Positions 10,202-14,418 of a stretch of DNA of 22,924 bases are shown piece after piece. How positions within the stretch are numbered: the stretch's first letter is position 1; every line of letters begins with the position of its first letter. Source of the stretch: a virus; IMG/VR virus record IMGVR_UViG_3300027906_000163, positions 1 to 22,924 of that record. One strand, 5' to 3'. Position numbers and translations under genes: made by a program. The notes under the pieces were generated by a model. It searched no databases. It saw nothing but the letters and a program-made list of their open reading frames with translations, and was not told the origin of the DNA.

Positions 10202-11848
10202 ATGACAGATATTAATCATTACTTAGGTAATCCACTTCTAAAAAAAGCAAATGTTCCAGTAGAGTGGACAAAAGAGAATATTCTTGAATACCAAAAGTGT
10301 ATGCAAGACCCTCTGTATTTTTGTCAGAAATACATTAAAATTGTATCTCTGGATGAAGGTCTTGTTCCTTTTGATGTATACCCATTTCAAAAAGAAATAC
10401 TAGGAACGATTCATAATAATCGTTTTACTATATGTAAACTTCCCAGACAATCTGGTAAGACAACCACAATTATATCTTATATCTTACATTATGTTCTATT
10501 CAACGAACAAATGAGAGTAGCGATACTTGCAAACAAAGCTGCAACTGCAAGAGATATTCTTTCCAGATTACAACTTGCATACGAAAACCTACCCAAATGG
10601 TTACAACAAGGAGTAATGTCTTGGAATAAAGGTTCTCTGGACTTAGAGAACGGTTCTAAAATAGTTGCATCATCTACATCTTCAAGTGCAGTTCGTGGTG
10701 GTTCTTACAATATGATATTCTTAGATGAGTTCGCTTTCGTACCACACAATGTCGCAGAGGATTTTTTCAGTTCTGTGTATCCTACAATATCATCTGGTAA
10801 AAATACAAAGGTTGTTATCGTATCAACTCCAAATGGTATGAACTTATTTTACAAACTCTGGTCTGATGCAGAGAGTGGTAAAAACTCTTATAACCCAATT
10901 GATGTTCACTGGAGTGAAATCCCAGGCAGAGATGAAAAGTGGAAAGTAGAAACTATAGCAAATACATCACAAGAACAATTTAATCGTGAATTTGAGTGTG
11001 AATTCTTAGGGTCTATCAATACCCTTATACACCCAACAAAGATTAAATCTATGGTGTTTGATGACCCTATACAACGTAATGCTGGATTGGAGTTATACAA
11101 GAAACCAGAGAAAGATAGATTATATACAATTGTGTGTGATGTTGCAAGAGGAACAGAACAAGACTATTCTGCATTTCTTGTATTTGATGTATCGGAGCTC
11201 CCATATCGTATTGTTGCAAAATATCGTAACAATCAAATTAAACCCCTACTGTTTCCAAATATAATCTATGATGTTGCAAAAGCATATAACAACGCATATG
11301 TTATGATTGAGGTAAATGATATTGGTGAACAAGTTGCAACTGCAATGCAGTATGACTTAGAGTTTGATAATCTAATTATGGCATCTATGCGTGGTAGAGC
11401 TGGTCAGATACTTGGTTCTGGTTTCTCTGGGGGTAAGGTGCAGTTAGGTGTAAGAACAACCAAAGCAGTAAAGATGTTAGGGTGTTCAAACCTCAAACAA
11501 CTGATAGAAACAGATAAGTTAATCATAAATGATTATGACCTTATAACAGAATTTTCTACATTTGTCAAGCATGGACAATCATTTCAAGCAGAAGAAGGAC
11601 ATACTGATGACCTTGCAATGTGTTGTGTATTGTTTGCGTGGATGACAAATCAAACATATTTCAAAGAATTAACAAACGTAGATATAAGAGAAAGAATGTT
11701 CTTAGAACAACAAGACCAATTAGAACAAGATATGGCTCCATTTGGATTTATGGACAATGGTATTGATGACCCAATGGGGGAAAATGTTATAGATGAATAC
11801 GGTCAGAGATGGTCACCAGTTGTAAGGAATTATGAAGACAATTGGTAG
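10202..11848 (+). CDS. 17: Terminase large subunit gp17 (packaging ATPase/nuclease)
   Basis: A 548-residue homologue of T4 gp17 (610 residues), the motor that cuts concatemeric DNA and pumps it through the gp20 portal. The ATPase domain has Walker A LPRQSGKTT (80-88), Walker B MIFLDEFAF (171-179) and coupling motif VSTPNG (207-212). The RNase-H-like nuclease domain has acidic residues Asp313 (VCDVARGTEQDYSA), Glu370 (VMIEVND) and Asp469/470 (GHTDDLAMC), matching T4 Asp401, Glu458 and Asp542. All key residues are present, so it should be active. The N-terminus (NHYLGNPLLKKANVP) agrees with relatives, which supports this ATG although no ribosome-binding site precedes it. Confidence 0.96.
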   Translation: MTDINHYLGNPLLKKANVPVEWTKENILEYQKCMQDPLYFCQKYIKIVSLDEGLVPFDVYPFQKEILGTIHNNRFTICKLPRQSGKTTTIISYILHYVLFNEQMRVAILANKAATARDILSRLQLAYENLPKWLQQGVMSWNKGSLDLENGSKIVASSTSSSAVRGGSYNMIFLDEFAFVPHNVAEDFFSSVYPTISSGKNTKVVIVSTPNGMNLFYKLWSDAESGKNSYNPIDVHWSEIPGRDEKWKVETIANTSQEQFNREFECEFLGSINTLIHPTKIKSMVFDDPIQRNAGLELYKKPEKDRLYTIVCDVARGTEQDYSAFLVFDVSELPYRIVAKYRNNQIKPLLFPNIIYDVAKAYNNAYVMIEVNDIGEQVATAMQYDLEFDNLIMASMRGRAGQILGSGFSGGKVQLGVRTTKAVKMLGCSNLKQLIETDKLIINDYDLITEFSTFVKHGQSFQAEEGHTDDLAMCCVLFAWMTNQTYFKELTNVDIRERMFLEQQDQLEQDMAPFGFMDNGIDDPMGENVIDEYGQRWSPVVRNYEDNW

Positions 11849-12009
11849 TAGAAAGTCCATGCATTAAAGTATGTACACTTGAAGGTAATATCTGTATTGG
11901 GTGTTACAGAACTCAGGATGAAATCAGGGAATGGATGATATTTTCTGATGAACAGAAAAAAGAAACCTTAGAAAAAATAAAACTTAGAAAACACCAAATT
12001 CCTACATAA
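11842..12009 (+). CDS. DUF1289-like small Cys-rich protein (TTG start)
   Basis: A 55-residue ORF that overlaps the gp17 stop by seven bases. The sequence ESPCIKVCTL, then CIGCYRTQDEIREW and SDEQKK, is the DUF1289 signature (SPC..VC......C.GC.RT.DEI..W). Its four Cys residues (7, 11, 18, 21) could bind a metal or Fe-S cluster. The function of the family is not established. An in-frame TGA at 11833-11835 limits the start to the TTG at 11842, which gives a start just before the conserved SPC. The ribosome-binding site is weak, so expression probably depends on coupling to gp17. Its 3' end overlaps the 3' end of the opposite-strand gene by eight bases. Confidence 0.72.
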   Translation: MVVESPCIKVCTLEGNICIGCYRTQDEIREWMIFSDEQKKETLEKIKLRKHQIPT

Positions 12010-12298
12010 TATCAATAATGTCGTGTTCGTATTTAATATAACAATTGGAACAAACTACTTTAGATTTTTCTATGAGATTGACTACTTCTTTTCTAGATTC
12101 TTCATTTAGACCCAATCGTTTAGATTTAAAACGAATTTCTTTATCGTAGGGGTAAAATTTAAGACAAGCTGTCTCTGGTTCACCACAATGATGACAAGAG
12201 TGAGATGCAAGATATTCATTCAACCAGATAATTCTTAGGTTATAGTTTTTCTTTGCAACTTCTTTTATGGTTTTTTGGTATCGTTTATAGTATGACAT
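12002..12298 (-). CDS. Degenerate HNH-like zinc protein
   Basis: The only minus-strand gene I support. The 98-residue product has two knuckles, CHHCGE (Cys35, Cys38) and CSNC (Cys83, Cys86), with spacing and flanks of the phage HNH endonuclease family (W...YL..H.C..CGE....CL.F........CVVCANCH). The His residues expected after the F in the first motif and after the second knuckle are missing: FYPYD replaces FHH/FDH, and CYIKYEH replaces CH..R. It may therefore have lost nuclease activity and remain as a zinc-ribbon DNA-binding protein, or be a decaying homing-type element. It sits between gp17 and gp18, transcribed against all neighbours. Confidence 0.65.
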   Translation of the reverse strand: MSYYKRYQKTIKEVAKKNYNLRIIWLNEYLASHSCHHCGEPETACLKFYPYDKEIRFKSKRLGLNEESRKEVVNLIEKSKVVCSNCYIKYEHDIIDIM

Positions 12299-12303
12299 GG
12301 TAT

Positions 12304-12311
12304 TATTTATA
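12304..12311 (-). promoter_or_regulatory. Late promoter-like TATAAATA on the minus strand
   Basis: Read on the minus strand this is a perfect TATAAATA, five bases before the start codon of the HNH-like gene. There is no ribosome-binding site between them. If active, it would give a leaderless or nearly leaderless mRNA. Confidence 0.45.
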
Positions 12312-12312
12312 G

Positions 12313-12373
12313 ATTCTTGTGCATATAAAAATGGGTTTTTAGAAACTCAATTTTACTAAATATACACAAGAAT
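12313..12373. repeat. 14-bp inverted repeat between divergent genes
   Basis: The left arm at 12313-12326 (ATTCTTGTGCATAT) and right arm at 12360-12373 (ATATACACAAGAAT) are complementary at 13 of 14 positions (one C.A mismatch), with a 33-base spacer. The right arm overlaps the CTAAATA element before gp18. The left arm lies just upstream of the minus-strand TATAAATA. It could be an operator, an RNA hairpin, or the edge of an inserted element. Confidence 0.75.
12356..12362 (+). promoter_or_regulatory. Late-promoter-like CTAAATA before gp18
   Basis: CTAAATA followed by TA lies 43 bases before the gp18 ATG, in the 107-base gap between the divergent HNH-like gene and gp18. AAGGAGAAAA is the ribosome-binding site downstream. 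It should drive gp18-gp19. Confidence 0.6.
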
Positions 12374-12405
12374 GATTTATTTGACAAAGAATAAGGAGAA
12401 AAAAT

Positions 12406-14418
12406 ATGCCTTTTCAAGTATCGCCTGGGGTTCTTGTCAAAGAGGTTGACTTAACCAATGTAGTTCCTGCCGTATCGACATCTATCGGTGCGATTGCTGG
12501 TGCCTTTGAGAAAGGCCCAGTTTCAGAGATTACAGCGGTTTCTTCGGAAGAAGATTTAGTCAGACTGTTTGGTAAACCTAACGGAAGTAACTTTGAGACA
12601 TTCTTTACTGCTTCTAACTTCCTTCAGTACGGAAACGCACTGAGAGTTGTAAGAGCACAAAGTGCTGTCTTAAATGCAATGAGTGGTGGTTCTGGTCTTT
12701 TGATTAAGTCCGACACTCATTATCAAGATAATTACGCCGCTGGACAAGCTTCTAGTGGTGAGTGGGGTGCTAGAAGTGCTGGTACTCACGGAAATAGTTT
12801 AGGTGTGTCCATGTGTTTGGGGCCACTTGCATACGAACAAACTTTTGCTGGAAACGCTAATACACTTGGTGTAACAACTGGTACTCCTGCTGTTGGTGCA
12901 ACTACTGTTGGAGTTGACACTGGTGGTGGTTCTGCTGGTGCTGGTGGAGCTGCATACAATGTAGGTGATATTATTCACTTCCATGAAGCAGACGGACAAG
13001 AGTATGAAGTAACTGCTATTTCTACAGACAATTTAACAATCAGACGTAAAGATGACCCAAATGGTGGTGGTCTTAAAACTGCACTTGCAGCTGCAACTAA
13101 TGTTCGCAGACGTTGGGCTTTCTATGATTTATTCGATAGTGCGCCTGGCACATCAACATATGCAACTGGTAAAAACCTTACTGATGATGAAATGCACATT
13201 GTTGTATTTGACACAACTGGTAATATATCTGGTTTCAGAAAAGATACTGCTGGTGAAAGAACAAACGCTGTTCTGGAAACATTTGCATTTGTATCAAAAG
13301 CATTTGGTGCTAAAACTGCACAAGGTGGAACTAACTACTACCCAGATGTGGTTTTCAAACAATCACAATTTGTATATTGGTTAGACCATCATTCAGTGCT
13401 TGGTGCTGGTGGTGGTAAGATTGCCGCTGGTACTGCTGGAACATCTGGTCAAGCATACGGAGTTGGTACTGGTACTACTGGTGAAATTTCTTTCACACTT
13501 GGTGGTGGTACAGACGATTATGCATTAACAGTTGGTGAACTTGACAGTGCATACACTGAATTTGAAGATGCAGAAACAGTTGATGTAAACCTCATTATGG
13601 CTGGTACAGCACCAGCATCTACAGATGGTGTTACACACGCAACCAATCTGATTGACATTGCAGAGAAAAGAAAAGACGTTGTTGTTTTCATCTCACCAAG
13701 AAGAGATGATGTGGTTAATGTTGCAAACTCTACCACACAAGCATCAAATGTCAAGGGTTTCTTTGATAACCTTGCAAGTTCTTCATACGCAGTCTTTGAT
13801 AGTGGATACAAGTACCAATTTGATAAGTTCAATGACGTATTCAGATTTGTACCACTAAATGGTGATATGGCTGGTCTTTGTGCAAACGTAGACACAGTTG
13901 CAGACCCATTCTTCTCGCCTGGCGGTTTTAATAGAGGACAAATTCGTGGTGCAGTTAAACTTGCGTTTAACCCAACCAAAGCACAGAGAGATATTCTCTA
14001 TCCTGCTCGAGTGAATCCAGTTGTCGCCTTCCCAGGCCAAGGAACGGTTCTTTTCGGTGATAAAACTGCACTAAGTAAACCAAGTGCATTTGACCGAATT
14101 AATGTTCGTAGATTGTTTATCTTACTAGAGAAAGCGATTGCAACTGCTGCTAAATTCCAGTTGTTTGAGTTCAATGACGCATTTACTCAAGCACAATTTA
14201 GAAACTTAGTTGAACCTTTCTTGAGAGACATTCAAGGTAGGAGGGGTATCACAGACTTTAGTGTTGTTGCAGACGGAACTAACAATACTGGAGAAGTAAT
14301 TGACCGAAACGAGTTTGTTGCAGACATCTTCATCAAACCAGCAAGGTCTATTAACTTCATTCAGTTGAACTTCATTGCAGTGAGAACTGGTGTCGCATTT
14401 TCAGAGATAGGGGGATAG
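12406..14418 (+). CDS. 18: Tail sheath protein gp18
   Basis: A 670-residue homologue of T4 gp18 (659 residues), the contractile sheath subunit. The N-terminus FQVSPGVLVKEVDLTNVVPA is the standard opening, followed by GAIAGAFEKGPV. The region about 150-215 is Gly/Ala-rich and contains YNVGDIIHFHEADGQEYEV, probably the outward-facing insertion domain. The C-terminal core has RNLVEPFLRDIQGRRGI, NEFVADIFIKPARSINFIQL and ends TGVAFSEIGG, the family handshake region. A strong AAGGAG precedes the ATG. gp19 follows four bases after the stop, so the two tail shaft genes are co-transcribed. Confidence 0.96.
   Translation: MPFQVSPGVLVKEVDLTNVVPAVSTSIGAIAGAFEKGPVSEITAVSSEEDLVRLFGKPNGSNFETFFTASNFLQYGNALRVVRAQSAVLNAMSGGSGLLIKSDTHYQDNYAAGQASSGEWGARSAGTHGNSLGVSMCLGPLAYEQTFAGNANTLGVTTGTPAVGATTVGVDTGGGSAGAGGAAYNVGDIIHFHEADGQEYEVTAISTDNLTIRRKDDPNGGGLKTALAAATNVRRRWAFYDLFDSAPGTSTYATGKNLTDDEMHIVVFDTTGNISGFRKDTAGERTNAVLETFAFVSKAFGAKTAQGGTNYYPDVVFKQSQFVYWLDHHSVLGAGGGKIAAGTAGTSGQAYGVGTGTTGEISFTLGGGTDDYALTVGELDSAYTEFEDAETVDVNLIMAGTAPASTDGVTHATNLIDIAEKRKDVVVFISPRRDDVVNVANSTTQASNVKGFFDNLASSSYAVFDSGYKYQFDKFNDVFRFVPLNGDMAGLCANVDTVADPFFSPGGFNRGQIRGAVKLAFNPTKAQRDILYPARVNPVVAFPGQGTVLFGDKTALSKPSAFDRINVRRLFILLEKAIATAAKFQLFEFNDAFTQAQFRNLVEPFLRDIQGRRGITDFSVVADGTNNTGEVIDRNEFVADIFIKPARSINFIQLNFIAVRTGVAFSEIGG

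Follow-up and report, generated by a model that had tools for sequence, protein, structure and literature searches.

A predicted divergent pair of T4-type late promoters between an HNH-like gene and the tail-sheath gene of a T4-like marine phage

The late promoters of phage T4, which depend on gp55, gp33, and gp45, carry an 8-bp box of the TATAAATA type that is reported to span positions -13 to -6 (PMC1524935). They are described as simple boxes with no conserved -35 sequence, and activation of the late complex is described as lengthening its upstream reach by 13 bp relative to the basal complex (PMC2988020). Among the nuclease-family genes of T4, the product of I-TevI is reported to repress its own late promoter (PMC2988022).

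The locus compared here with these systems lies on a virus record of 22,924 bases (the whole stretch analysed, hereafter called the window) that carries T4-like genes for terminase, tail sheath, tail tube, and portal. A 107-bp intergenic region separates the tail-sheath gene gp18 from a divergently oriented gene for an HNH-like protein. The features are listed below.

12002 to 12298, minus strand: HNH-like gene encoding a four-cysteine, HNH-derived protein of 98 aa (PHROG HNH endonuclease families, E values of 1.8e-5 and 3.2e-5)
12304 to 12311, minus strand: T4-type late box TATAAATA serving the HNH-like gene, whose ATG follows after 5 nt, with the transcript start predicted at 12298
12313 to 12326, no strand assigned: left arm of an inverted repeat, judged coincidental, with 3 variable sites of 14 in 14 close sequences
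12324 to 12330, plus strand: element E1, TATAAAA, beginning 31 bp before the start of the gp18 box
12339 to 12346, plus strand: element E2, TTAGAAAC, a weaker conserved A-rich element before the gp18 box
12355 to 12362, plus strand: late box ACTAAATA of gp18, with the transcript start predicted near 12368
12360 to 12373, no strand assigned: right arm of the inverted repeat, overlapping the gp18 box and predicted start, with 0 variable sites of 14 in 14 close sequences
12393 to 12398, plus strand: Shine-Dalgarno sequence AAGGAG of gp18
12406 to 14418, plus strand: gp18 tail sheath (PHROG tail sheath, E value of 7e-126), heading the downstream tail and head cluster, with tail tube and portal genes (PHROG) further downstream

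The best explanation, to which we give a probability of roughly 0.5 as a whole, is that the intergenic DNA forms a compact divergent control region in a T4-like marine phage, in which paired late promoters would compete with each other, the HNH-derived gene would be expressed from a leaderless message, and the zinc protein it encodes may exert control.

Promoter layout and the predicted leaderless message

Relatives were collected with a profile of the HNH-like protein, which matched 302 of 332 loci among the matches listed. It was observed that gp18 lies divergently upstream in 285 of these 302 and, by other checks, in six more (L100 and five with similar boxes), which had been missed by the gp18 pattern and do not contribute to the sequence counts below. 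With nine incomplete loci and two other phages (L131 and L132) left out of the counts, the HNH-like gene stands beside gp18 in 291 of 291 complete family loci of the phage group among the matches listed, a position that is also compatible with homing. Because loci overlap between scans, distinct sequences were counted. Among the matches listed there are 159 distinct intergenic sequences. In 158 of these, representing 36 protein clusters, late boxes lie on both strands at a distance of 30-60 bp from each other, in a box search that itself required TAAATA; the one sequence dropped, L262, has no box pair at this distance.

The two boxes are placed with considerable regularity. Typically, the gap between them is 40-43 bp (140 of the 158 sequences), and the individual gaps are 43 bp in 82 sequences, 42 in 46, 41 in 10, 40 in 2, 36 in 6, 35 in 2, 32 in 3, 31 in 5, and 54 in 2. 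The distance from the HNH-gene box to the ATG is 5 nt in 140 of 158 sequences, 7 in 12, 8 in 5, and 6 in 1; for gp18 the corresponding distance varies from 32 to 64. At the level of protein clusters, the 5-nt spacing is found in every member of 32 of the 36, and a gap of 40-43 bp in at least one member of 31 of the 36. The spacing is thus not absolute, with gaps of 31-32, 35-36, or 54 bp in 18 of 158 sequences and with L262 outside 30-60 bp. These data argue for two T4-type late promoters that are arranged back to back at a near-fixed spacing and whose starts are predicted. The phage Melnitz-2, which is included among the loci, has annotated genes for the late coactivator, the late sigma factor, and the sliding clamp.

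As a side observation, 10 of the 18 rarer gaps (31-32 bp in L242, L244, L245, L247, L252, and others; 54 bp in L254 and L258) differ by about 11 bp from the usual 42-43 bp. Such a shift corresponds to one helical turn and arises mostly in the part that separates E1 from the HNH-gene box; the eight sequences with a gap of 35-36 bp do not fit it.

A further candidate, a general -33 promoter motif in the form of a T-rich element located 20 bp before each of the boxes, was rejected. By eye, it is not seen at the other listed late promoters, whether in the window or in Melnitz-2, and in those clades whose gap differs, the element tracks gp18 and not the HNH-like gene.

With the box at -13 to -6, the 5 nt between the HNH-gene box and its ATG place the predicted transcript start at the A of the AUG. 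A Shine-Dalgarno-like motif within the 22 nt upstream was found for only 1 of 158 HNH-like genes versus 158 of 158 gp18 genes, so that 157 of the 158 HNH-like genes have the lack of a Shine-Dalgarno sequence by which leaderless genes are recognized. The message of the HNH-like gene is therefore predicted to be leaderless. A short distance between box and ATG is not unique to this gene: before the other open frames of the window and Melnitz-2, seven box-like sites are located 0-8 nt from an ATG and the rest 13-62 nt away, and two of the seven (54812, plus strand, and 62276, minus strand) lie at exactly 5 nt.

The inverted repeat and the upstream elements E1 and E2

An earlier note on this DNA had pointed out a 14-bp inverted repeat between the two promoters. 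The repeat is present as described, with 13 of 14 pairs matching between the arms at 12313-12326 and 12360-12373 and with 33 nt between them, and the flanking boxes are where the note had put them (TATAAATA on the minus strand at 12304-12311, CTAAATA at 12356-12362). Each strand of the window has one copy of the sequence CACAAGAAT, and the window holds no second repeat of that grade (at least 13 of 14 pairs, spacer of 0-60). When the 107-bp intergenic region was shuffled alone, such a repeat arose in 0.5% of 5,000 trials, and when the surrounding 301 bp were shuffled it arose in 0.75% of 2,000 trials; 60 dinucleotide shuffles of the entire window gave a mean of 0.42 such repeats and up to 4. 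The repeat is thus notable locally and unremarkable once picked from 23 kb.

The note had suggested that the repeat could be an operator, possibly bound by the adjacent zinc protein, or could have arisen by duplication when the HNH-like gene was inserted. Its good match and its rarity in the shuffled intergenic region favor this reading, but the arms are not conserved. Close relatives with both genes, counted together with the window, provide 14 distinct intergenic sequences of 107 bp. Among these, the arms pair at 13 of 14 positions in one sequence, which is that of the window, at 12 in three, and at 11 in ten; the gp18-side arm is constant and the other drifts. In the more distant sequences listed, the right arm is not seen as a motif and CACAAGAAT is absent after the gp18 box. 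Covariation of the arms, which had been proposed as the check, was thus looked for in relatives with both flanking genes, and the arms are neither kept nor covarying. Moreover, the description of the halves as two copies of one element facing opposite ways does not hold, because, with the late box taken as -13 to -6, the left arm covers -28 to -15 with respect to the HNH-gene promoter and the right arm covers -8 to +6 with respect to that of gp18, and these positions are not equivalent. Since the arms are neither kept nor covarying, the repeat is rejected both as an operator and as an insertion duplication, and we attach next to no weight to either. What stands of the earlier proposal of coordinated control is the conserved layout of divergent late promoters; the element between them for which conservation is found is a different one, E1.

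Of the 158 distinct sequences, 154 have E1 (at least 6 of 7 letters matching), at 29-32 bp before the gp18 box. E1 was absent from the gp18 promoters of 17 relatives that lack the HNH-like gene there (0 of 17; 14 contigs together with Mosig, HTVC008M, and P-HM2, which often have gp17 coding sequence at the place where E1 would be) and from the other late promoters that were compared, 29 in the window and Melnitz-2 together (0 of 29). Furthermore, in a sample of 80 loci chosen only by a gp18 box and a gp18 start, four of which had too little upstream sequence, E1 was present in 4 of 4 loci with the gene versus 2 of 72 without it among the matches listed (Fisher P of 1.2e-5; the pattern required TATAAATA, which excluded the window's own clade). 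E1 thus appears to be tied to the presence of the zinc-protein gene.

Of the 36 cluster representatives, 35 have their best E1 match at a distance of 29-32 bp from the gp18 box. The distance from E1 to the HNH-gene box is 11-12 bp in 31 of the 36 and 5, 5, 5, 1, and 22 bp in the five others. This suggests that E1 follows gp18 rather than the HNH-like gene, as judged from five clusters of which three (L084, L110, and L114) are alike, which corresponds to about three lineages. A standard deviation of 0.7 versus 3.2 bp for the E1-to-gp18 distance came from a search confined to 28-32 bp, and the free search was relied on instead.

One reading of E1 is that it constitutes a second, tandem late promoter for gp18, with TATAAAA as a degenerate TATAAATA. 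E1 is on the same strand, has the same first six letters as the late box, and reads TATAAATA itself in some sequences (e.g., L068, L077, L120, and L126). Against this, the exact TATAAAA is found within 28-32 bp in 28 of 36 representatives (mean of 0.2 and maximum of 3 in 2,000 rounds with shuffled spacers) and so departs from the box in its last letters, whereas the accepted boxes vary in the first two (the search having itself required TAAATA); a tandem promoter would also have no need for a spacing held at 29-32 bp in nearly all representatives. We regard this reading as quite improbable.

E2 is less informative. By a loose match of 5 out of 5 it is present in 129 of 158 sequences versus 1 of 17 gene-free relatives and 2 of 29 other late promoters, and in the sample of 80 loci it does not discriminate (1 of 4 with the gene versus 10 of 72 without), which downgraded E2 as an equal partner of E1. 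In a matrix scan no composite of E1 and E2 stands out elsewhere in the window, and in Melnitz-2 the phage's own site leads narrowly (17.8 versus 16.7), a scan that is circular because the matrix was built from representatives of the same lineages.

The box gap of about 43 bp would place the predicted starts about 70 bp apart. Together with the further upstream reach of the activated complex, this distance leads us to infer that two clamp-activated polymerases would be unable to load together, so that the promoters would compete. Passive competition of this kind may also be all that the layout reflects: the spacing would then be kept so that late polymerases with sliding clamps exclude each other and the output of the HNH-like gene stays low and fixed, and E1 would be an AT-rich or alpha-CTD-contacting upstream element that involves no dedicated protein. 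E1 lies near -44 to -38 of gp18, where the proximal subsites of UP elements are located. The predicted spacing of the starts and the 13 bp by which the activated T4 complex is described as exceeding the basal one upstream (PMC2988020) agree with this explanation as well. Its weak points are that E1 would be an odd general upstream element if it occurs at none of the other late promoters and none of the gene-free gp18 promoters, and that the layout persists at another distance in the clades with a gap of 31-36 bp. Competition as the sole explanation seems to us somewhat unlikely.

The HNH-like protein and the history of its gene

The zinc-type cysteine pairs of the HNH-like protein are kept, cysteines 35, 38, 83, and 86 being invariant in 47 of 47 nonredundant members. 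Both HNH histidines that were tested are lost in all 47: position 50 is proline in each, and position 87 is never histidine. At the aligned positions the reference proteins, two annotated HNH proteins from Haloarcula virus HCTV-16 and Streptomyces phage Riptide, read DFHH or DFDH and NCH. The protein is thus probably without nuclease activity. It is under purifying selection, with a median dN/dS of 0.07 in two clades, a ratio that is rough in the second because its dS of about 2 is near saturation. The first 32 residues have a net charge of at least +4 in 47 of 47 members and form mostly one long N-terminal helix in the AF2 model (pLDDT of 90).

Similarity searches gave little beyond the PHROG families. 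The structural match listed by VIA is an HNH nickase (4h9d, Z of 3.0, rmsd of 3.7, 60 aligned), Foldseek on the PDB returned no match at an E value of 0.001 (best E of 5), and the PDB sequence search with the protein gave a best E value of 0.12. In Pfam the window protein falls below the cut-off, and there are only weak matches among the members (best listed E of 0.0017). The Melnitz-2 annotation calls the gene hypothetical.

The protein might also act elsewhere (for example, in terminase function and packaging, or on RNA), its gene being merely located here and E1 being read by another factor. The HNH-like gene is close to the large terminase gene in the window and adjoins it in Melnitz-2, DNA binding by the protein is putative, and a factor other than the HNH-like protein could equally well read E1. 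The tight link between E1 and the gene would then need another cause, and we know of no T4-like headful terminase that needs an HNH partner. On these grounds we consider this explanation unlikely.

Two observations concern the neighboring genes. A 55-aa open reading frame with a TTG start (window positions 11842-12009, plus strand) matches DUF1289 (E value of 2.7e-17) and overlaps gp17 and the HNH-like gene, each at its end; no gene is annotated at the corresponding place in Melnitz-2. In the latter phage (L130), a gene for an F5/8 type C domain protein is annotated at 10990-13023, between the small and large terminase genes.

A gp18 tree was built with 68 tips, L054, L055, and L080 being left out as they had no profile match. 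The tips that bear the HNH-like gene form blocks of 32 (support of 0.992), 13 (0.999), and 5 (0.991), in addition to L120 (0.106), and the gene-free tips form two supported blocks of 5 and 11, in addition to the root P-HM2, whose position shifts between tree runs with and without L054, L055, and L080. Going by this tree, the HNH-like gene is resident within large clades; because the bearing tips fall into several blocks and the root moves, a single gain followed by vertical descent is not established.

Proposed mechanism and comparison with known systems

In the explanation that we prefer, one late promoter would drive the tail-sheath cluster from gp18 onward, and the other would drive the 98-aa HNH-derived zinc protein from a transcript starting at the AUG. 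Besides the competition between the two promoters, the zinc protein would bind the spacer that contains E1 and E2, thereby limiting its own synthesis and tuning the sheath operon. Autorepression by I-TevI makes binding of the zinc protein at the E1 spacer plausible, and we put this part of the proposal at a little under an even chance. A more far-reaching version is tentative and, on balance, doubtful: a nuclease-dead HNH endonuclease, formerly of the homing type, would have settled as a late regulator across a large group of marine T4-like phages. Made there from a leaderless late message, it would bind E1 and E2 and thereby set how much of itself is produced relative to the tail-sheath operon.

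If true, T4-type late transcription, otherwise regarded as relying on a TATA box alone, would here have a regulator that acts at a specific site. The spaced pair with an upstream element and a seemingly leaderless gene would be an exception to the simple-box T4 late promoters, and the isolated phage Melnitz carries such a pair. The locus would also provide a case of a nuclease gene that took on another role and became resident in a phage. The parts are each of a known kind, namely, T4 late promoters, HNH proteins, leaderless genes, and autorepressing phage nucleases. For their combination (a spaced divergent pair together with an element confined to the pair in the samples tested), no account was found in the literature on divergent late promoters, on HNH proteins near sheath genes, terminase genes, or late promoters, and on leaderless late genes, which was covered mostly at the level of titles and abstracts. 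The main text of the Melnitz paper contains no occurrence of HNH, homing, inverted repeat, or gp18; 15 late promoters are counted there, and, in the part of the paper available, the pair between the HNH-like gene and gp18 is not discussed. A possible parallel is the S21 ribosomal protein gene of other phages, which is described as lying on the reverse strand with its expression linked to late-stage replication (PMC9723584).

Compared with the T4 late promoters, the predicted pair has the same 8-bp type of box, at the same position relative to the start and likewise before structural genes; it differs in being divergent, in its near-fixed spacing, and in the additional upstream element. The gene segD of T4, which is antisense between 23 and 24, resembles the HNH-like gene as a nuclease-family gene on the minus strand inside a late structural cluster (PMC2988022), but for segD no promoter of its own has been identified, whereas the HNH-like gene has a conserved one. 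I-TevI is similar in that a gene of a nuclease family is driven by a late promoter that has a putative binding site next to it (PMC2988022). Unlike the HNH-like protein, which is free-standing, HNH-derived, and probably inactive and whose binding is putative, I-TevI is an active intron-encoded GIY-YIG enzyme. Finally, the mob genes of T4, which encode free-standing HNH homing endonucleases, resemble the present gene in that an HNH-family protein is encoded between other genes of a T4-like phage. The 98-aa protein differs from them in being without the separate C-terminal region of the mob type (PMC2988022), in the loss of the catalytic histidines, and in being encoded behind a conserved late promoter of its own.
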